This document shows, piece by piece, positions 31,124 through 41,441 of a DNA stretch of 64,000 bases. The translations under genes and the position numbers were made by a program. Numbering within the stretch: position 1 is the first letter of the stretch; every line of letters starts with the position of its first letter. The stretch comes from Ignavibacteriales bacterium. GTDB taxonomy: Bacteria > Bacteroidota > Ignavibacteria > Ignavibacteriales > Melioribacteraceae. Location: contig JAPLFF010000007.1 in NCBI GenBank assembly GCA_026390775.1, positions 1,054,001 through 1,118,000 of the forward strand, written 5' to 3'. Under the pieces are notes generated by a model. That model searched no databases and had not been told where the DNA came from. It saw only the letters and a list, made by a program, of their open reading frames with translations.

Positions 31124-32509
31124 ATGAAAAGATTATTTTCTTTATACTCTATATATTTCATTTTATCAGTCTGGATTGCAGTGAATAATTCGGTTGTCTA
31201 TTCACAATCCATTGATACAGCAACAACTATAGAAACAGTGGCAGAGCCTTTTGCGTGGGGAGATTTTACATGGCTCAATGGAAACGACAGACGGCACACC
31301 GTCTTACTTGACGGCAAATACTTCACAGGACAATTTCTACTTGATATGAATTATACAGCATCAAGTAATCATCCGGTTGACCACACTGTTGTGGGCTCAA
31401 CCGCGCTTGCCCGTGATAATGAATTTGAAGTCTCGGTTGCAGCAATTGGCGGTGATTTCCATTATGATAATGTACGCGGCAGAATATTACTCCAAATAGG
31501 AACACGGGCAACTGTAGTACCGAGAAACGATTTTAGTGTTCTTCACGGTCAATTCGATCTGGCAAATGCATACCGCTATATTAGTGAGGCAAATGCAGGT
31601 TATCATTTTAATGTATGGCATGGAATAAATGTAGATGCCGGCATTTTCATGTCGTATGTTGGCCTCTTCTCTTATTATAATGCTGAGAACTGGGCTTATC
31701 AATCTTCCTTTACATCTGATAATACACCCTGGTTCTTTAACGGAATTAGAATTCAAACTTTTCCAACAGATTGTCTTAAGGTAGAATTATGGTTGATCAA
31801 CGGTTGGCAATCGTACGCAAAATTTAACAATGGTCCTGGTGTTGGCGCTCAGATCTTGTGGAGACCTAAAGAGGAGATCCAATTGCTTTCAAACAATTAT
31901 TACGGGACTGATACCCAGGGTCACCCTGACCGAATTCGTTTCCACACAGATAATAGTTTTGAATTCCGCTATTATAATAATCCGACAAGCTTTGTAACTC
32001 GCGGGGCGTTTTCTATTACCGGTGATATGGGGTTTGAAAAGGGTGGCGGAGTAAGTGGTTTAAGCAATGGATCTGATGGTCCCGCACAATATTTTATTAG
32101 CGGAATGATTTACCATCGTCTTTGGATGGCGAACGATCATATAGGCTGGACAGTGGGCGGTGGATTCATAAATAATCCTGGGCGCTACTTAGTACTTTAC
32201 CCGACAGGCGATGCGAATCCGATTCCAGCGATCAATTCAGGACAAACCGGAACACATCCATTCTCAGCAAACCCTGGAGACCAATTTCATGGGTGGGATT
32301 GTTCTACCACTCTTGATTGGATGCCAAATGATTTTTTGACATGGCGCATAGAAATTGTTCATCGCGAAACAGACATACCATATTTTGCCGGTCCAGGTGG
32401 TATTACATCTCCCGATGGTTATAATAATACTCCAATTCCTATAGATTGGAAACCTGACCTCGTGAAATCAGAAACACGTATTATTTTTGCAACGCTTGTT
32501 CGTTTTTGA
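31124..32509 (+). CDS. Outer-membrane beta-barrel (porin-like) protein linked to the kdp operon
   Basis: 461 residues with a signal peptide ending near SVVYSQ. The mature part starts EPFAWGDFTWLNGNDRRH and continues with aromatic-rich amphipathic strands (FTGQFLLDMNYTAS, NAGYHFNVWHGINVDAGIFM, LKVELWLINGWQSY, TWRIEIVHRETD). It ends with ETRIIFATLVRF, a C-terminal Phe typical of outer-membrane barrels. This is the putative porin (BBP2/OmpL-like) group of Bacteroidota. It precedes kdpF by 78 bp in the same direction, so it may admit potassium or other small solutes to the periplasm for the Kdp pump; this is inferred from position. Confidence 0.78.
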   Translation: MKRLFSLYSIYFILSVWIAVNNSVVYSQSIDTATTIETVAEPFAWGDFTWLNGNDRRHTVLLDGKYFTGQFLLDMNYTASSNHPVDHTVVGSTALARDNEFEVSVAAIGGDFHYDNVRGRILLQIGTRATVVPRNDFSVLHGQFDLANAYRYISEANAGYHFNVWHGINVDAGIFMSYVGLFSYYNAENWAYQSSFTSDNTPWFFNGIRIQTFPTDCLKVELWLINGWQSYAKFNNGPGVGAQILWRPKEEIQLLSNNYYGTDTQGHPDRIRFHTDNSFEFRYYNNPTSFVTRGAFSITGDMGFEKGGGVSGLSNGSDGPAQYFISGMIYHRLWMANDHIGWTVGGGFINNPGRYLVLYPTGDANPIPAINSGQTGTHPFSANPGDQFHGWDCSTTLDWMPNDFLTWRIEIVHRETDIPYFAGPGGITSPDGYNNTPIPIDWKPDLVKSETRIIFATLVRF

Positions 32510-32703: not shown

Positions 32704-34398
32704 ATGATAACAACACATGAAATAATTCAGTTAATTTTTTACATAGTTGTCTTAACGGCACTTGCACCGTTGTTGGGCGGATTCTTTGCTAAAGTTTTGA
32801 AAGGCGAGAAAAATTTTCTAACTCCCATATTTGGGAAAATAGAAACGGCAGTTTATAAATTTTCAAAAATTAATCCTTCCGAAGAAATGGATTGGAAGGT
32901 CTATACTTTCGCTTTAATGGCTTTCAATTTACTTGGAATAATTTTTTTGGTAGTGATCCAGCTTCTTCAAGCATATCTACCCTTAAATCCGCAAGGACTT
33001 CCCAATGTCGAACTAACACTTGCAATAAATACTGCTGTTAGTTTCGTAACAAATACCAACTGGCAGTCTTATGGCGGTGAAAATACGCTCGGTTATTTTG
33101 TTCAGATGATCGGATTAGCAGTTCAAAATTTTGTAAGCGCTGCAACTGCAATTGCCGTTTTGTTGGTTTTAGTCCGTGCATTGAAAACAAGAAAAGGAAA
33201 TACACTCGGAAATTTCTGGGTGGACTTAACCCGTTCAACAATTTATATACTATTACCGCTAGCCATAATATGGGCTTTATTATTGGTCAGTCAAGGAGTT
33301 GTACAAACTTTTTCTTCTTACAAAGAAGCAACAATGTTAGAAGGAGCTAAACAAATTATTCCTTTAGGACCGGCAGCTTCCCAGATCGCTATAAAAATGT
33401 TAGGAACAAACGGCGGGGGATTCTTTAACACAAATAGTGCTTTCCCGTTTGAAAATCCTACACCACTTTCAAATTTTATTCAAGTGCTTGGAATACTTTT
33501 AATCTCGGCTTCTTTGGTCTTTACATTCGGTAGAATGATCGGCTCGAAAAAACATGCTTGGGTGATCTACGGAGTGATGCTTTTCCTTTTTGTTGCGGGA
33601 TTGTCGGTTTCGGTTTATTCTGAGTATTCAACAAATCCGATCTTTCACGCAGGCGGTTTAATGGAAGGAAAAGAAACCCGCTTCGGAGTTATGAACAGCG
33701 TACTTTGGTCCACTGCTACAACATCGGCATCAAACGGTTCAGTTAATTCAATGCACAGTAGTTTATCGCCGCTTGCTGGAATGATTGCTCTTATAAATAT
33801 GGAAGTCGGCGAAATAATTTTCGGCGGTAACGGCTGCGGTCTTTATGGAATTTTACTTTTTGTATTTCTAACTGTTTTTATTGCGGGATTAATGATCGGA
33901 AGAACTCCCGAATATTTAGGAAAGAAGATCGAATCGCGGGAAGTGAAATGGTCTATTGTAGCAATACTATTACCAAGCGCATGTATACTTCTCTTTTCGG
34001 CAATTGCAATGAAAACAACTGCAGGATTATCAAGTCTTGCTAATGCAGGCCCGCACGGTTATTCGGAAATACTTTACGCTTTTTCTTCGGCGGCGGGAAA
34101 TAACGGAAGCGCATTCGCCGGTTTAAATGCAAACACAACGTTTTATAATTTAATGTTAGCCCTAACAATGTTCGTCGGTAGATTCGGTGTGCTCATCCCT
34201 GTAATGATTATTGCGGGAAGTTTAGTCAAAAAAAATATTACGCCTACATCTTCCGGAACTCTCTCTACGGAAAATTTACTGTTCGGTATATTGTTAATAG
34301 GCGTTATTCTAATAGTAGGAGCTTTAACTTTCTTCCCGGCATTATCATTTGGCCCGATACTCGAACATCTGCTTATGGGACAGGGAATTACTTTTTAA
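32704..34398 (+). CDS. kdpA: Potassium-transporting ATPase potassium-binding subunit KdpA
   Basis: 564 residues, about ten membrane spans, the normal size of KdpA. It carries the pore segments of the SKT channel superfamily: SFVTNTNWQSYGGENTLGY near 105-125, LGTNGGGFFNTNSAFPFENP near 235-254, and the later loops with STATTSASNGSVN, and AAGNNGSAFAGLNANT. The N-terminal half begins with the characteristic APLLGGFFAKV. KdpA takes K+ from the periplasm into the tunnel towards KdpB. The gene lies between kdpF (20 bp) and kdpB (21 bp) in one operon. Confidence 0.98.
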   Translation: MITTHEIIQLIFYIVVLTALAPLLGGFFAKVLKGEKNFLTPIFGKIETAVYKFSKINPSEEMDWKVYTFALMAFNLLGIIFLVVIQLLQAYLPLNPQGLPNVELTLAINTAVSFVTNTNWQSYGGENTLGYFVQMIGLAVQNFVSAATAIAVLLVLVRALKTRKGNTLGNFWVDLTRSTIYILLPLAIIWALLLVSQGVVQTFSSYKEATMLEGAKQIIPLGPAASQIAIKMLGTNGGGFFNTNSAFPFENPTPLSNFIQVLGILLISASLVFTFGRMIGSKKHAWVIYGVMLFLFVAGLSVSVYSEYSTNPIFHAGGLMEGKETRFGVMNSVLWSTATTSASNGSVNSMHSSLSPLAGMIALINMEVGEIIFGGNGCGLYGILLFVFLTVFIAGLMIGRTPEYLGKKIESREVKWSIVAILLPSACILLFSAIAMKTTAGLSSLANAGPHGYSEILYAFSSAAGNNGSAFAGLNANTTFYNLMLALTMFVGRFGVLIPVMIIAGSLVKKNITPTSSGTLSTENLLFGILLIGVILIVGALTFFPALSFGPILEHLLMGQGITF

Positions 34399-34419: not shown

Positions 34420-36522
34420 ATGAAAATGAACTCAAATAAATCTATCAACAGAAAACTTTTCGACAAAAAAATTATTACCCAGGCGGTAATAGATTCTTTC
34501 AAGAAATTGAATCCGAAATTCTTAGTTAAGAATCCTGTTATGTTTATTGTTGCAGTGGGCGCTCTTCTTTCAACAATATTCTTTTTTAAAAATCTTTTCA
34601 TCGGCAGTTTTTCCGGATTTAATCTGCAAATAATTATTTGGCTCTGGTTCACTGTGCTGTTTGCCAATTTTGCGGAAGCTGTTGCCGAAGGAAGAGGAAA
34701 AGCACAGTCGGAAAATCTCCGGAAAACCCGCACTCTTACGATTGCAAGAAAGTTGGTTAACAGCGAAGAGAAACATGTGCCGGCAATTGAACTTCGAATC
34801 GGTGATCTTGTTGTCTGCGAAACGGGAAATATTATTCCTTCCGACGGAGAAGTAATCGAAGGTGCGGCAAGTATTGATGAATCTGCTCTAACCGGTGAAT
34901 CCGCTCCCGTAATTCGTGAAAGCGGCGGTGATAGAAGTGTTGTTACCGGCGGAACAAAAGTTATCAGCGATAGAATAGTTATTAGAATTACTGCCGATCC
35001 GGGCGGAACTTATTTAGACAAAATGATTTCTCTTGTTGAAAGTGCAAAACGTAAAAAAACTCCGAACGAAATTGCATTGTCAACTCTTATCGCCGGATTC
35101 AACCTGGTATTTTTACTTGTCGTTCTAACTATAAGAGTTTTTATTGAATACCATCAGACAGGTTCTGTGAATGTTAGTGATATTGTTTCTGTGCCAGTAC
35201 TTGTTGCACTTTTAGTTTGTTTGATTCCTACTACAATCGGCGGTTTATTAAGTGCGATCGGAATCAGCGGAATGGATCGTTTGCTCGGTCATAATGTAAT
35301 CGCTATGAGCGGAAGAGCAGTTGAAGCGGCAGGTGATATAGACGTTCTTCTTCTTGATAAGACCGGTACAATCACATTGGGAAATAGAATGGCTTCAGTC
35401 TTCGTCCCAGTTAACAGTGTTCCAATAGAGAAATTAGCAGATGCGGCACAGCTTTCTTCGCTTTCGGACGAAACGCCCGAAGGAAGATCTATTGTAGTTC
35501 TTGCTAAAGAAAAATTCGGTTTGAGAGGAAGAGATATTTCAAAATTGGATGCACATTTTATTCCGTTCAGCGCTCAAACGAGAATGAGCGGTGTGGATAT
35601 TCATCCTTCGAATGGTGAATCAAAAAGAATTATTCGCAAAGGTTCCGCCGATGCAATAAAAAAATATGTTGAAAGTAACGGCGGAAAATTTAACTCGGAT
35701 GTTCAGCAGATCGTAAACGAATTTTCCAAAGCTGGTTCTACTCCTCTTGTTGTTGCAGAAAATTTTAAAGTGCTCGGTGTAATTGAATTAAAAGACATTG
35801 TGAAAGGTGGAATTAAAGAACGATTTGCACAGTTAAGAAAGATGGGTATCAAAACTGTTATGATTACCGGCGATAATCCGCTTACAGCAACAGCAATTGC
35901 TGCAGAAGCAGGAGTTGATGATTTTATTGCCGAGGCTAAACCGGAAGATAAACTAAAACGTATCCGTGAAGAACAGACCGGTGGCAGAATGGTCGGCATG
36001 ATCGGCGACGGAACAAACGATGCACCTGCACTTGCACAAGCCGATGTCGGAATTGCTATGAACAGCGGAACGCAGGCCGCTCGCGAAGCTGGGAACATGA
36101 TTGACCTCGACAGCAACCCGACAAAACTTATTGAAGTTGTAGAAATTGGTAAGCAGTTATTAATGACACGCGGTGCTCTTACAACGTTCAGCATTGCTAA
36201 CGATGTTGCAAAATATTTTGCTATCATCCCGGCGATATCAACTTTTCTTTACGCAACACATTTTACAGACGGTCCTCTCTCTGCTCTTAACATAATGAAA
36301 CTTGCAACACCTCAAAGCGCTATTCTCAGTGCTGTTATTTTTAATGCATTAATAATTGTTCTTTTAATTCCATTAGCATTGAAAGGTGTTAAATATAGAC
36401 CTGCTGGTGCGGCGGCCATATTAAGAAAAAATATTTGGGTCTATGGCGTTGGAGGATTGATAGTTCCGTTCATCGGAATAAAATTAATAGACTTGTTCAT
36501 AACTGCAATTAAATTGGTCTAA
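34420..36522 (+). CDS. kdpB: Potassium-transporting ATPase ATP-binding subunit KdpB
   Basis: 700-residue P-type ATPase of class IA. The phosphorylated Asp is D313 in [13 protein letters not shown]. Other family motifs are TGES in [10 protein letters not shown], the nucleotide-binding loop [18 protein letters not shown], and [17 protein letters not shown]. The actuator loop and the M4 segment [14 protein letters not shown] are KdpB-like. It is expected to hydrolyse ATP to drive K+ import with KdpA and KdpC. It starts with ATG 34420; a second ATG two codons on is an equal alternative. kdpC follows at 29 bp. Confidence 0.98.
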
Positions 36523-37131: not shown

Positions 37132-39165
37132 ATGAAAGAAACCGAAGAACATCGAAGACCCGACCCGGATGCGCTATTAGCCGAGATAAAGCGTAATGAA
37201 AATAAAAAAGGTAAGCTGAAAATATTTTTAGGTTACGCTCCCGGTGTTGGTAAAACTTATTCAATGTTGCTTGAAGCACATGCTCTCAAGAAACGGGGGT
37301 TGGATACCGTCATCGGATACATTGAAACACACAAAAGAGATGAAACAAACGCGTTGCTCGAAGGTCTTGAAGTTCTGCCGAGACGGAAACTTCCTTATAG
37401 AGATTTGATGCTTGAGGAGATGGATATTGATGCAATCATAAATAGAAATCCGCAAATTGTTCTTGTAGATGAATTAGCCCACACAAATATTTCAGGAAGC
37501 CGCCATCCGAAACGATACTTGGATGTAAAAGAAATTCTTGAACGCGGTATCGATGTTTTGACCACGGTTAATATCCAGCATTTCGAAAGCCAAAACGATA
37601 TTATCGAACAGGTTACAGGAATAAGAGTTCAGGAAACAATTCCCGATAGTTTATTGGATGAAGCCGATGAGATCAGATTAGTAGATATTCCGCTTGAAGA
37701 ATTGTTATTAAGGTTGAAAGAGGGAAAAGTTTATTTACCTGAACAAGCACAACGTGCGATTCAAAATTTCTTCCGTAAAGGAAATCTTACTGCTCTTAGA
37801 GAAATAACTTTAAGAAAAGTTGCAACCAAAATAGACAGCGAACTTCTTCATTATGTTAAAGCAAGATCCATAGACAATCCATGGCATATTGCGGATAAGA
37901 TAATGGTTTGTGTTTCACCGAGTCCATTTTCAAAACAGATTGTTAGGCGTGCATATAATTTAGCGTATGATGCCGGAATAGAATGGTTTGCGGTATATGT
38001 ATCGATTCCTAAATTCAAAAATTTGTCACAGAAAGAACAAGCATATCTTTCGGATGCACTGAACCTTGCCGAAAACTTGGGCGGAAAAATATTTACACTT
38101 TCCGGCTCGGATATAGCCGATGAGATAATAAATTTTGCTAAAGATAAAAATATTACACGCGTGTTAATCGGTAAACCGCTAAAATCGCCGTTACATGAAT
38201 TCTTGAAACGATCTCCGACATTTAAGCTGATGTATGATCAAAGTTCGTTCGATGTCCAGCTAATAACACCGTTTTCTGAAACCGATGCCTCCGTAAGTAC
38301 GGAAATATTGAGACATGGCAAGAAGAAATTTAATTTCAAAAATTATCTTTATTCTTTTTTGATTCTTATTCCAGTTACCATAACAGTCAGCGTCCTCGAA
38401 AAATTATTTTCTCTTCCCTCCTTTGAAATGATCTTTATTATTGCGCCGATAGTAGCGGCAATATTTTATGGTTTGGGTCCTGCGATTTTTTCTTCTTTAA
38501 TGAGCGTTTTGTTTTACGATTATTTTTTTGTTGAACCGCGTTTAAGTTTTACAATAAGCAGACCGGAACATTTTGTAAGCCTTTTAATCTTCCTTGTTGT
38601 TTCTACATTGGTGAGTCAATTAATAAATCAATCCAAGAATCAATATTCAGCATTAAGGATGAGATTAGAGAGCTTGAGCGTGATTGAAGATCTGAGCAAA
38701 GAGCTTCTAAACATTCCTTTGCATGAAGAAATTCTTAAAGATTTTGATAAGTCAAACAATCAGCCGGATAATATTTTAAAGGTTATTAAAACATCAATTC
38801 AGGAAGAGATTTCTAGAATCGTTATCAAATATATCGGTAAAGTTGTAAAAGCCGATTGCATTATGATGCTGAAAGATGAAAAAAATAATCTTCGTACTTT
38901 ATCAAGGAGTTCTTCCCGTATCGAACTGAATGCAAAAGAATTAGGAGTTGCAGATTGGGCGTTTAATAAAAATTTACTTGCAGGATGCGGTACGAATAAT
39001 TTAACCGAGATTTTTTGGTTCTTTCTTCCTATTTCTATTCCTTCCGGTGGAACAATCGGTGTTGTAGGATTTAAATTTAATTATAAAGATATTTTACTAG
39101 AGCAAAGGAATCTTATTAATACGATATCGAAACTTTCGTCTATTGCAATTTCAAATTGGATATAA
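37132..39165 (+). CDS. kdpD: KdpD sensor half: KdpD-USP-DUF4118-GAF-like, without kinase
   Basis: 677 residues. Residues about 25-230 are the N-terminal KdpD domain with Walker A GYAPGVGKT (34-42), Walker B-like VLVDELAHTN (110-119) and the TTVNIQHFESQ motif. About 250-375 is a universal stress protein-like domain (KIMVCVSPSPFSKQIVRRAY). Four membrane spans of the DUF4118 domain follow at about 405-495 (FIIAPIVAAIFYGLGPAIFS, YFFVEPRLSFTI). The remainder is a GAF-like domain. It ends at ISNWI, with no HisKA box and no ATPase domain, so it cannot phosphorylate KdpE itself. It must act with the separate kinase encoded 38 bp downstream. Confidence 0.92.
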   Translation: MKETEEHRRPDPDALLAEIKRNENKKGKLKIFLGYAPGVGKTYSMLLEAHALKKRGLDTVIGYIETHKRDETNALLEGLEVLPRRKLPYRDLMLEEMDIDAIINRNPQIVLVDELAHTNISGSRHPKRYLDVKEILERGIDVLTTVNIQHFESQNDIIEQVTGIRVQETIPDSLLDEADEIRLVDIPLEELLLRLKEGKVYLPEQAQRAIQNFFRKGNLTALREITLRKVATKIDSELLHYVKARSIDNPWHIADKIMVCVSPSPFSKQIVRRAYNLAYDAGIEWFAVYVSIPKFKNLSQKEQAYLSDALNLAENLGGKIFTLSGSDIADEIINFAKDKNITRVLIGKPLKSPLHEFLKRSPTFKLMYDQSSFDVQLITPFSETDASVSTEILRHGKKKFNFKNYLYSFLILIPVTITVSVLEKLFSLPSFEMIFIIAPIVAAIFYGLGPAIFSSLMSVLFYDYFFVEPRLSFTISRPEHFVSLLIFLVVSTLVSQLINQSKNQYSALRMRLESLSVIEDLSKELLNIPLHEEILKDFDKSNNQPDNILKVIKTSIQEEISRIVIKYIGKVVKADCIMMLKDEKNNLRTLSRSSSRIELNAKELGVADWAFNKNLLAGCGTNNLTEIFWFFLPISIPSGGTIGVVGFKFNYKDILLEQRNLINTISKLSSIAISNWI

Positions 39166-39203
39166 AAGTATAACTCCACATAAGAATAGAATTTGATGTT
39201 CAT

Positions 39204-40736
39204 ATGATTGAGGACATGAAAATTAAATCCGCAAGAATGATATTAAAAAAAATATTTGTTTTTCAATCCAGCTTGAACCAGTATCTAATTTCATTATTGA
39301 TCATTGCCGTTCTAAATGTAATCTGTTATACTATCCAGACTCACATTGGATATCAAACAGTTTCTTTCATTTTCCTCTTGACTATTTCTCTGTTGCCGTT
39401 ATTTAATTTTGGACCCGGACCGATATTTTTTGCAGCAACACTTAGTGCTTTCAGTTGGAACTATTTTTTTATCCCACCCCAGTTCACACTCGATATCTCG
39501 AAGATAGAAGATGTATTGATGCTAATAATGTTTTTTATTGTTGCAATGGTTACCGGAGTTCTATCTGCAAGAATAAGAAAGCAAGAAAAATTTGTTAGAC
39601 AACGGGAAGAAAGAACTAATGCACTATATAAACTTTCGAAAGAATTATCTGCCGCATATAATTTAGATAAAGTGGCAGAAATTGCGATCCAAAATATTAG
39701 CAATGCTTTTAATATAGATGTTGCAATTTTACTTTGCGGTACTGACAAGGAATTATCGCGCAGTGAACATAAATTAAGCTTCTTCAAGATAAATGCAACT
39801 GATTGGCAAATAGCTCACTGGGTTTTTACTAATAGACAGCCTGCGGGAAAATATACCAAGACGCTCCCGTCGTCAGAAATAACGCACATGCCTTTGTTCA
39901 GCGTAAATAAATCTCTCGGGGTTCTTGAGATAAAAAGTATTAATCCTTTAAGTTCTGATCAGCAAATTCTTCTTAATGCTTTTATTGCTCAAATATCAAA
40001 TGCTGTTGAAAAAGAATACTTAAATGAAGAATCAAAAAAATCATTAATAATTTCCGAATCTGAAAAACTTTACAAAACTTTGTTCGATTCTATCTCACAT
40101 GAATTGAAAACCCCGCTTACAACTATTATTGGTGCAACTAGCTCATTCAAAGATGAAAAGATAAGACAGAACAAAACTATTCTATCCCGTCTGATAAACG
40201 AAATAAATATAGCTGCCGAAAGATTAAACCGTCTTGTGGAGAATTTGCTCGATATGACACGTCTGGAATCCGGACAGATGAAATTAAAATTAGATTGGAA
40301 CGAAATCACAGACCTTATTGAAAGTGTTTTGAAAAGATTGAGTAACGAATTAATTAATCACACGGTTAAAACCGATATTCAAGAGAATATCCCGCTATTT
40401 AAGTTCGATTTCGGATTGCTTGAACAAGCTTTGATTAATGTTATGCACAATTCATTAATTTACACTCCGGAGAAAAGTACGATCAAGATTAGCGTAAAAG
40501 AGGAAAAAAATATTTGTTTAATTGAGATATCGGATAACGGTCCTGGGTTTGTGGAAGAAACTCTCAGTAAATTATTCGAAAAATTTTATAGAATACCCGG
40601 AACAAAAACCGGTGGAACCGGCTTAGGGTTATCGATTGCAAAAGGATTTATTGAAGCACATTCGGGAAGCATTACTGCAAAGAATCGAAAAGAAGGCGGA
40701 GCGGTATTTATTATAAAGATTCCGATGCAAAATTAA
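39204..40736 (+). CDS. KdpD kinase half: DUF4118-GAF-like-histidine kinase
   Basis: 510 residues. Four membrane spans at about 25-110 form a second DUF4118 domain (VSFIFLLTISLLPLFNFGPG, FSWNYFFIPPQFTLDISK). A GAF-like region follows (about 140-280). HisKA has the phosphorylated H299 in DSISHELKTPLTT. HATPase_c has N (QALINVMHNSLIY), G1 (EISDNGPG), F (KLFEKFYR) and G2 (GTGLGLSIAKG) boxes. The N-terminal KdpD ATPase and USP domains are missing. It is the transmitter part of KdpD, encoded as its own protein, and should phosphorylate KdpE 12 bp downstream. ATG 39204 is the likely start; an ATG four codons on is possible. Confidence 0.92.
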   Translation: MIEDMKIKSARMILKKIFVFQSSLNQYLISLLIIAVLNVICYTIQTHIGYQTVSFIFLLTISLLPLFNFGPGPIFFAATLSAFSWNYFFIPPQFTLDISKIEDVLMLIMFFIVAMVTGVLSARIRKQEKFVRQREERTNALYKLSKELSAAYNLDKVAEIAIQNISNAFNIDVAILLCGTDKELSRSEHKLSFFKINATDWQIAHWVFTNRQPAGKYTKTLPSSEITHMPLFSVNKSLGVLEIKSINPLSSDQQILLNAFIAQISNAVEKEYLNEESKKSLIISESEKLYKTLFDSISHELKTPLTTIIGATSSFKDEKIRQNKTILSRLINEINIAAERLNRLVENLLDMTRLESGQMKLKLDWNEITDLIESVLKRLSNELINHTVKTDIQENIPLFKFDFGLLEQALINVMHNSLIYTPEKSTIKISVKEEKNICLIEISDNGPGFVEETLSKLFEKFYRIPGTKTGGTGLGLSIAKGFIEAHSGSITAKNRKEGGAVFIIKIPMQN

Positions 40737-40748
40737 GATCTAAAAATT

Positions 40749-41441
40749 ATGAGCACAAAACCAATAATCTTGATCATTGATGATGAATCTCAAATAAGAA
40801 AAATATTACACATTACACTTGAATCCGCCGAATATAAAGTGATCGAGGCTGAGAATGGGAAAGACGGAATTATTCAAGCAGCTACCGCACATCCCAATCT
40901 AATAATTTTAGATTTAGGATTACCAGATCAAGACGGTTATTCCGTTTTGAAAGAAATTAGAACATGGAGTTTATTGCCTGTAATGATATTGTCCGTTAGA
41001 AATTCTGAGGAAGATATTGTGAAAGCTTTGGATTTAGGAGCCGATGATTATCTTACAAAACCGTTTTATAGTGCGGAATTACTTGCCCGGATAAGAGCAA
41101 GTTTAAGAAGAGCAAGCCAAGTTCAAGAGAGCAACATATTCACAAATGGTTCAGTTAAAATTGATCTTGTTTTAAGAACCGTTACAAAAGGCGATGAGGA
41201 AATAAAACTTACTGCTACGGAATATTCGTTATTAATACTATTAGCAAAAAATTTAGGAAAGGTATTAACTCATCAGTTTATACTTAAGGAAGTATGGGGC
41301 CAAAGTTATGTTGAGCAATCCCAATCCTTGCGCGTTTTTGTGGGACAACTAAGAAAAAAAATAGAGGAAGATCCTGCCCGCCCTAGTATGATAATAACCG
41401 AACCAGGAATAGGTTATAGAATGAAATCACTGAATGATTAG
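40749..41441 (+). CDS. kdpE: KdpE response regulator (OmpR family)
   Basis: 230 residues. The receiver domain has the acidic pair in IIDDES (11-13), the phosphorylated D55 in LIILDLGLPDQDG, and the K in YLTKPF. The C-terminal winged helix is of the OmpR/PhoB type (LTATEYSLLILLAKN, then LKEVWGQSYVEQSQSLRVFV, then GIGYRM). The HQFILKEVWG segment is typical of KdpE. It should activate the upstream kdp genes at low potassium. It is the last gene of the operon; no hairpin terminator is evident after it, only 7-bp repeats. Confidence 0.95.
   Translation: MSTKPIILIIDDESQIRKILHITLESAEYKVIEAENGKDGIIQAATAHPNLIILDLGLPDQDGYSVLKEIRTWSLLPVMILSVRNSEEDIVKALDLGADDYLTKPFYSAELLARIRASLRRASQVQESNIFTNGSVKIDLVLRTVTKGDEEIKLTATEYSLLILLAKNLGKVLTHQFILKEVWGQSYVEQSQSLRVFVGQLRKKIEEDPARPSMIITEPGIGYRMKSLND

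Follow-up and report, generated by a model that had tools for sequence, protein, structure and literature searches.

The window, a stretch of 64,000 nucleotides from the genome of an Ignavibacteriales bacterium of the Melioribacteraceae (GCA_026390775.1, 3.0 Mb, hereafter G000; contig JAPLFF010000007.1, positions 1,054,001 to 1,118,000), carries a run of kdp genes in the order kdpA, kdpB, kdpC, P0001, P0002 and kdpE. P0001 (677 residues) and P0002 (510 residues) are encoded by intact open reading frames (ORFs) on the same strand with 38 bases between them, and together they hold all the domains of the single-chain KdpD of E. coli. P0001 has the architecture KdpD-Usp-DUF4118-GAF and then ends, no kinase domain having been detected in its Pfam scan; P0002 has the architecture DUF4118-GAF-HisKA-HATPase, and its Pfam scan detected neither a KdpD nor a Usp domain. 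A preliminary description made from the letters alone had read the locus as a KdpD divided in this way into two proteins, and that domain reading was borne out by Pfam, by the GAF_3 matches of relatives and by Foldseek. The coordinates are collected in Table 1.

Table 1. Features of the kdp run, in window coordinates.
Feature	Position	Strand	Evidence
kdpA, 564 aa, haplotype I	32704..34398	+	Pfam KdpA 773.9 bits
kdpB, 700 aa, TGES motif with Ser161 (= E. coli Ser162)	34420..36522	+	Pfam, alignment
kdpC, 191 aa	36552..37127	+	Pfam KdpC 215.8 bits; NCBIfam KdpC 208 bits (cut-off 178)
P0001, kinase-less KdpD, 677 aa; predicted to be a serine kinase chain of the atypical type that has a membrane domain and a GAF domain of its own	37132..39165	+	
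P0001 KdpD domain, residues 25-234	37204..37833	+	Pfam 322 bits (cut-off 26.1)
P0001 Usp domain, residues 255-357	37894..38202	+	Pfam 21.2 bits, below cut-off 24; fold match 7ji4
P0001 DUF4118 membrane domain, residues 405-509	38344..38658	+	Pfam 85.6 bits
P0001 26-residue insert, residues ~528-553	38713..38790	+	alignment
P0001 GAF domain, residues ~545-677, at protein end	38764..39162	+	relatives' GAF_3; Foldseek 4qpr/4y2f
P0002, shortened KdpD histidine kinase, 510 aa	39204..40736	+	Pfam; His299 at E. coli His673 position
P0002 DUF4118, residues 27-133	39282..39602	+	Pfam 77.8 bits
P0002 GAF, residues 153-269	39660..40010	+	Pfam GAF_3 29 bits
P0002 HisKA (292-357, 57.5 bits) and HATPase_c (405-509, 84.9 bits)	40077..40730	+	Pfam
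P0002 inferred recombination point, residues 334-343	40203..40230	+	MaxChi
kdpE, 230 aa, mosaic	40749..41441	+	Pfam Response_reg and Trans_reg_C; MaxChi
kdpE switch point, near codon 83-90	40995-41016		MaxChi

P0001 scored above the cut-off of the KdpD family PF02702, and P0002 lacks the KdpD domain. The GAF domain of P0001 was not detected in the Pfam scan; its presence is supported by GAF_3 at the homologous position in two scanned relatives from the candidate-phylum WOR-3 group (38.9 and 37 bits) and by the Foldseek matches of an AlphaFold model of modest confidence (mean predicted local distance difference test score 70.9, predicted template modelling score 0.34). These matches comprised the KdpD N-domain (2r8r), a Usp domain with cyclic di-AMP (c-di-AMP; 7ji4) and the GAF domain of E. 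coli KdpD (4qpr, 4y2f). Against NF007793, the model for single-chain KdpD histidine kinases, P0001 scored 510.5 bits, short of the cut-off of 1123, and P0002 scored 314.4 bits. The model for KdpD-like non-kinase sensors, NF038185, aligned to residues 8-378 of P0001 with 388.1 bits, below its cut-off of 550, and P0001 possesses DUF4118 and GAF in addition.

A sequencing error or frameshift was rejected as the source of the two frames, as the arrangement recurs in other genomes with homologous ends. The end point of P0001 is shared by its counterparts in three further genomes of the genus and in three WOR-3 metagenome-assembled genomes (MAGs), and each of the two chains has its own DUF4118 and GAF domains, which makes a frameshift very unlikely and the split real, as had been proposed. 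The ratio of nonsynonymous to synonymous substitution rates (dN/dS) over the whole P0001 gene was 0.094 in the comparison with the genus member G001, and ranged from 0.060 to 0.094 across the three pairs with finite dS, in two of which dS was saturated; P0001 is under purifying selection. One could envisage that P0001 is a decaying, functionless remnant, given that the histidine kinase and most of the arginines that follow the fourth transmembrane (TM) segment in E. coli KdpD have been lost from it (the alignment shows the arginine cluster kept in P0002). With such low ratios, and with the gene intact in four genomes, we find decay hardly credible.

The KdpD domain of E. coli is an atypical serine kinase that, at high K+ and with no need of the histidine kinase, phosphorylates Ser162 of KdpB; KdpD lacking the histidine-kinase domains was active in this phosphorylation, and the N-domain alone sufficed (main text of Silberberg et al. 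2024, PMC11018627). Of the residues that were shown to matter for this kinase, P0001 has, by alignment to E. coli KdpD, G-X5-GKT (residues 34-42), the Walker B Asp-Glu pair (Asp113/Glu114) and the equivalent of Arg190 (Arg194), and they are kept in 7/7 rows of the clade of kinase-less KdpDs described below. Trp39 of E. coli, on the adenine side, is replaced by Tyr in this clade, as in most of the other aligned rows. The TGES motif of KdpB is kept in the four genomes inspected (G000, G001, G004 and G005). P0002, in turn, has the H-box SHELKTP with His299 and an HATPase domain, as befits a histidine kinase with a dimerization and histidine phosphotransfer domain and a catalytic domain (DHp and CA).

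The Usp loop of P0001 (residues 262-289) reads SPS-X20-WFAVY, to be compared with the c-di-AMP motif SXS-X20-FTAXY of S. aureus KdpD, in which the first Ser and the last Tyr were tested (PMC4686210); P0001 keeps both of these residues and the X20 spacing, but not the F and T. The G000 genome encodes a diadenylate cyclase domain (133.3 bits), and the short KdpD of Deinococcus geothermalis is stimulated by c-di-AMP, as reported in the text of PMC11018627. P0001 might be a serine kinase controlled solely by c-di-AMP, its DUF4118-GAF part serving as a membrane anchor without sensing. The cyclase and the two retained residues speak for this possibility. Besides the missing F and T, the first Ser is absent from the three WOR-3 rows of the kinase-less clade, and the DUF4118-GAF part itself is under purifying selection (dN/dS of 0.131 against G001 and, with dS saturated, of 0.106 against G004), so that we regard control by c-di-AMP alone as unlikely, yet as an explanation to be taken seriously.

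A split kdpD of Alicyclobacillus acidocaldarius was reportedly described by Schleussinger in 2006. Silberberg et al. (2024) described, in the main text of PMC11018627, split KdpDs with the serine-kinase motifs on one chain and the histidine kinase with TM and GAF domains on the other, and P0001, with the KdpD domain, and P0002, with HisKA-HATPase, TM and GAF, form a split serine/histidine system of this kind, P0002 having the TM/GAF/DHpCA architecture of their histidine-kinase chain. The serine-kinase chain of the common split described there consists of KdpD and Usp only and has no membrane domain, whereas P0001 adds DUF4118 and GAF, and the sensor is therefore doubled. P0001 alone has the KdpD-Usp-TM-GAF architecture of the DHpCA-truncated KdpDs reported in that text from Campylobacterota and Archaea; those kinase-less proteins are mainly from species without KdpE, whereas here a second KdpD-type kinase and kdpE lie in the same run. 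Compared with the single-chain KdpD of E. coli, the serine-kinase residues are conserved, but two chains are present, DUF4118-GAF occurs twice, P0001 has a 26-residue insert and it has lost most of the arginine cluster. The preliminary description had allowed that such a split might be long known, and this applies in part: serine/histidine splits and KdpDs truncated after GAF have been published for other groups (PMC11018627, main text). What is unusual here is that the DUF4118-GAF sensor is doubled, that the serine-kinase chain is foreign and that the kinase is a recombinant. No description of the doubled arrangement, of its WOR-3 link or of the recombinant kinase was found in the literature listings searched or in the sections of PMC11018627 consulted.

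The ancestry of P0001 was examined in two KdpD trees, one of 73 rows (15 of the 88 collected sequences, being second copies per gene or genome or the fragments L092 and L059, were excluded) and one of 34 rows over the KdpD-to-GAF region, which included three WOR-3 rows and was used for approximately unbiased (AU) tests; a fourth WOR-3 row, G687, is truncated by the end of its locus and appears in the 73-row tree only. In the larger tree the four kinase-less KdpDs of the genus formed one clade (100) that was sister (100) to the KdpDs of four WOR-3 genomes, apart from the five single-chain KdpDs of the genus; the smaller tree gave the same grouping with support of 99. The short KdpDs (378-395 aa) of the class and phylum fell elsewhere in the 73-row tree. 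A 26-residue insert before GAF was present in 7/7 rows of the kinase-less clade and was missing from all of the other 14 rows with coverage there. KdpD likewise ends after GAF in G569, G570 and G571, the three WOR-3 MAGs in which the gene is complete. The trees show that P0001 is not a duplicate of the resident KdpD and that it comes from a KdpD lineage without a histidine kinase that also occurs in WOR-3 MAGs; the simplest reading is that the histidine kinase was lost from this KdpD before the genus and WOR-3 came to share it.

This placement goes against the origin suggested in the preliminary description, in which a tandem duplication of the resident KdpD was followed by loss of opposite ends. 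G001, with a P0001-type chain and a complete KdpD side by side, does resemble an intermediate of such a process. However, forcing the P0001-type and single-chain KdpDs of the genus into one clade was rejected in the 34-row tree (AU p = 5.1e-89), as was the same constraint with three KdpDs of the family and order included (p = 2.7e-6); the insert, common to WOR-3, is missing from the full KdpDs of the genus, and P0001 is 44-46% identical to the WOR-3 KdpDs as against 35-39% to the full KdpDs found in its genus and order. Duplication is refuted unless the models mislead on long branches, and we hold it to be extremely improbable. The loss of one end stands for P0002, which did lose a KdpD/USP part, grouping as it does with full-length KdpDs of the order in its left part and of the genus in its right part.

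Several other observations were made at WOR-3 loci. G638, from the WOR-3 phylum group, encodes a kinase-less KdpD-Usp-DUF4118 protein of 651 aa that lacks the 26-residue insert (L142, 1423-3378). In two WOR-3 loci (L126, 3281-5650; L127, 4126-6534) a DUF4118-HisKA-HATPase kinase of 335 and 347 aa, respectively, adjoins a receiver-domain protein of 447-452 aa that is NtrC-like by eye; the L126 kinase was confirmed by Pfam, its DUF4118 falling just under the cut-off. In G570 the kinase is located about 2.4 kb upstream of kdpA, on the other strand.

Transfer of the whole operon from WOR-3 was ruled out for kdpAB: the kdpAB of haplotype I, the haplotype found in the window, grouped with the genus and order (100), and a grouping with WOR-3 was rejected (AU p = 7.9e-14). 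To judge from this tree, kdpAB is native to the order and, among these genes, just the KdpD chain is foreign. KdpD above the cut-off was found in eight of the 12 genus genomes examined, and a P0001-type chain in four of the eight (G000, G001, G004 and G007), always with haplotype I of kdpABC; G003, G005, G009 and G010 have a single-chain KdpD alone. Within haplotype I, KdpA is 91-93% identical among G000, G001 and G004 and 80-82% identical to that of G007, and the kdpABC genes of these four genomes cluster together in the tree. The KdpA haplotype of G003, G005 and G010 (91-94% mutually) is 73-76% identical to that of G000, G001 and G004, and that of G009 is different again. The window KdpA is 93% identical to that of G001, 91% to that of G004 and 73-74% to those of G003, G005 and G010; the corresponding values for KdpB are 95%, 94% and 75%.

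The gene that follows the P0001-type chain encodes a 510-aa kinase in G000 and G004, a complete 882-aa KdpD in G001 and, in G007, a shortened kinase of which 406 aa were seen before the contig end. Recurrence of the split in related kdp loci, which the preliminary description had singled out as a test, was found in G004 and, with another shortened kinase, in G007; across genomes the histidine-kinase partner differs while kdpABC and P0001 remain together. In a species tree of UvrB (named by eye) and RpoB, from which G007 and G041 are absent, G000 grouped with G003/G005 (100/100) and G001 with G006/G010 (100/99). The genes flanking the window kdp run have matches in G005/G003 at 84-97%, with gene order preserved (uvrB, a 144-aa ORF, a cation transporter, a dgt-like and an ispH-like gene, all named by eye; a 277-aa ORF matches at 66%). 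Because the species tree contradicts the haplotypes and the flanks match G005/G003, the kdpABC-P0001 block most likely replaced the resident genes in situ. G001 looks like an alternative outcome, in which the same block was joined upstream of a complete resident-type KdpD: the block lies where G010 has its own operon, as read from the lengths and order of the flanking ORFs. MaxChi for G001 (G004 against G010) gave a weak signal of 18.4, with 2/2000 permutations as high. The gap of about 820 bases that precedes the second kinase gene of G007 gave no convincing match to a KdpD N-terminal remnant (the best blastn hit had an E of 0.049, and tblastn reached 18 bits).

P0002 is a recombinant, with residues 1 to ~335 of the G004 split-system type and the rest of the single-chain KdpD type of the closest relatives. 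Its DUF4118 and GAF domains are 86% and 69% identical to those of the G004 kinase (at most 63% and 48% for the nine others compared), and its CA domain is 85-91% identical to the full KdpDs of G001, G003, G005 and G010 and 51% identical to that of G004. Four comparisons by MaxChi on codons gave values of 132.8-188.5, each with 0/2000 permutations as high; in the comparison of G004 with G005, matches to G004 dropped from 232/350 to 73/350 informative sites across the switch. P0002 grouped with G004 (100/100) in the left-part kinase tree, in which this part of the gene falls with full-length KdpDs of the order (87/84), and with the single-chain KdpDs of the genus (98/99) in the right-part tree, where the grouping of G000 with G004 was rejected (AU p = 0.017) and the G007 kinase was excluded on account of the contig end. 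The earlier suggestion of a fusion with another kinase was half right, in that P0002 is a joined gene; its partners, however, are two KdpD-type kinases that recombined. The finding suggests that sensor and catalytic halves from KdpD lineages with 51% identity in their catalytic domains can be joined inside HisKA in nature.

The preliminary description also held that the two proteins probably form a heteromeric sensor. The chains would pair through DUF4118 and GAF, with P0001 supplying ATP/USP sensing in trans to P0002, and it fits that the genes are adjacent on one strand, that both chains carry DUF4118 and GAF, and that the DUF4118-GAF half of P0002 is of the same donor type (G004-like) as P0001. 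However, in G001 the P0001-type chain stands beside a complete KdpD, and the KdpD of the WOR-3 genome G569 is the sole DUF4118 protein found in that MAG, the ORF in the ~2 kb of contig after it having no kinase match. In G570 and G571 just 0.75 and 0.2 kb of contig, respectively, remain past KdpD; these two carry little weight, which weakens this argument. The G007 histidine kinase did not group with that of G004 in the left-part tree, although its placement there is not firm. Since the published output of the N-domain needs no histidine-kinase partner (PMC11018627, main text) and the same chain adjoins a complete KdpD in G001, a heteromer is no longer needed to account for the two chains, and we consider it rather unlikely.

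We favor a reading in which the two catalytic outputs of KdpD are divided between P0001 and P0002, two membrane chains that each have a copy of DUF4118-GAF, the region in which the K+ sensors of E. coli KdpD reside. At high K+, P0001 would phosphorylate the serine of the KdpB TGES motif and shut off the pump, as the conserved residues and the work on E. coli and Deinococcus suggest; at low K+, P0002 would phosphorylate KdpE and turn the operon on. The enzymatic activities of both chains, and K+ sensing by the DUF4118-GAF of P0001, are predicted on this basis. The trees show that a kinase-less KdpD from a lineage also present in WOR-3 came to adjoin a native kdpABC, and the kdpABC-P0001 block would then have passed among species of the genus through homologous replacement. 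In G000 the block would have taken the place of the 5' portion of a G005-like operon, the crossover falling inside the histidine-kinase gene, so that in P0002 a sensor from the donor is joined to the catalytic domain of the resident. Taken as a whole (two outputs on two sensor-bearing membrane chains, a foreign P0001, a spreading block and a recombinant P0002), we think this reading probable.

A number of observations weigh against it. The loss of the arginines means that the membrane part of P0001 may signal unlike that of E. coli. The separation of kdpAB haplotypes I and II in the tree is not significant (AU p = 0.07), and the kdpAB of G009 groups with G042. The block occurs in four genomes of the genus only, so that P0001 and kdpABC may be linked by nothing more than adjacency. 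The WOR-3 loci come from MAGs, and their KdpDs are 44-46% identical to P0001, so that a third lineage may have been the donor. The G638 protein described above, which lies on a long branch outside the clade, takes no firm position in the 73-row tree and adjoins the clade at 84 in the 34-row tree, shows that kinase loss in the WOR-3 phylum is not one tidy event, and it is perhaps another separate loss. Finally, querying with G004 likewise gave a significant MaxChi value (80.7, 0/2000 permutations as high), so that the test alone does not name the hybrid, and the right-part kinase tree is weakly resolved, with the catalytic half of G004 divergent in it; P0002 was named as the hybrid because its right part follows the species tree and its left part does not.

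The discussion in Silberberg et al. (2024; PMC11018627) asks whether the two activities of KdpD, serine kinase and histidine kinase, are under separate control. Such control is hard to dissect in the usual single chain; here the activities are on separate chains, each with a membrane and GAF region, and close relatives are found in three other states: a single chain, a serine-kinase chain with a complete KdpD, and such a chain with another shortened kinase. With the split chains in one gene run and relatives in the other states, separate control becomes testable by single-gene deletions. The suggestion of the preliminary description that input and output may be separately tuned is a fair idea when recast as two outputs, each with its own sensor. 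It is possible, and we put it forward tentatively, that a private DUF4118-GAF sensor for each output in one operon makes a natural two-threshold K+ controller, and that the pump and serine kinase travel as a cassette with an exchangeable histidine kinase, replaced even by recombination within the gene.

The arrangement is rare in the class sample surveyed, which comprised 245 genomes and yielded 92 strong KdpD matches (weaker ones, with E of 4.9e-22 or worse, were left out of the tally). The open frames were at least 790 aa in 61 cases, below 430 aa in 20, 540-590 aa in eight (one of them cut by a contig end) and 600-760 aa in three, the last being those of G000, G001 and an unrelated truncation in G246. 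The G246 protein (L085, 9724-11676; 650 aa, ending after GAF) was rejected as the same case, as its place in the trees is with L074, among KdpDs of the resident type. The 19-kb stretch L085 of that genome has neither a KdpD-type kinase nor kdpE, and a histidine kinase with 60 bits to the kinase part of P0002 lies about 12 kb upstream of it in L073; G246 is, by its grouping, an independent kinase loss from a resident-type KdpD.

The 540-590 aa kinase-less KdpDs of other families were likewise set aside as a different thing, being KdpD-USP-EIIA fusions in 9/9 scanned. In all nine, proteins of ~550-640 aa from family f12 (L067, L068, L131 and L094) and family f35 (L132, L133, L134, L135 and L136), a phosphotransferase system (PTS) EIIA_2 domain (PF00359) follows the KdpD-Usp region, and at least six of these loci have a histidine kinase upstream of kdpA. 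EIIA-Ntr interacts with KdpD in E. coli, and the fusion may therefore place the serine kinase under nitrogen-PTS control. Partial KdpD-domain matches were seen in G117 (C20, 912-1259; 79.2 bits) and G130 (C248, 12541-12834; 49.7 bits) in frames of ~210-220 aa; both genomes also have a complete KdpD, which in G130 lies directly beside the partial match.

Further observations concern the genes around the sensor pair. The window kdpE is a mosaic, its first ~83 codons being G005-like and the remainder G010-like (MaxChi 59.9, 0/2000 permutations as high), and exchange was therefore not limited to the sensor genes. Directly upstream of kdpA (31124-32509) lies a gene for a BBP2-type outer-membrane beta-barrel that is 73% identical to the gene upstream of kdpA in G007 and was not found in the G003/G005 stretches; it may be part of the imported block. 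In G004 a second, divergent kdpABC (L077, 15770-19501) stands directly upstream of the split operon, with a KdpB of 722 aa, a KdpC-like protein of 340 aa whose match falls into two pieces and a KdpA cut by the end of the stretch.

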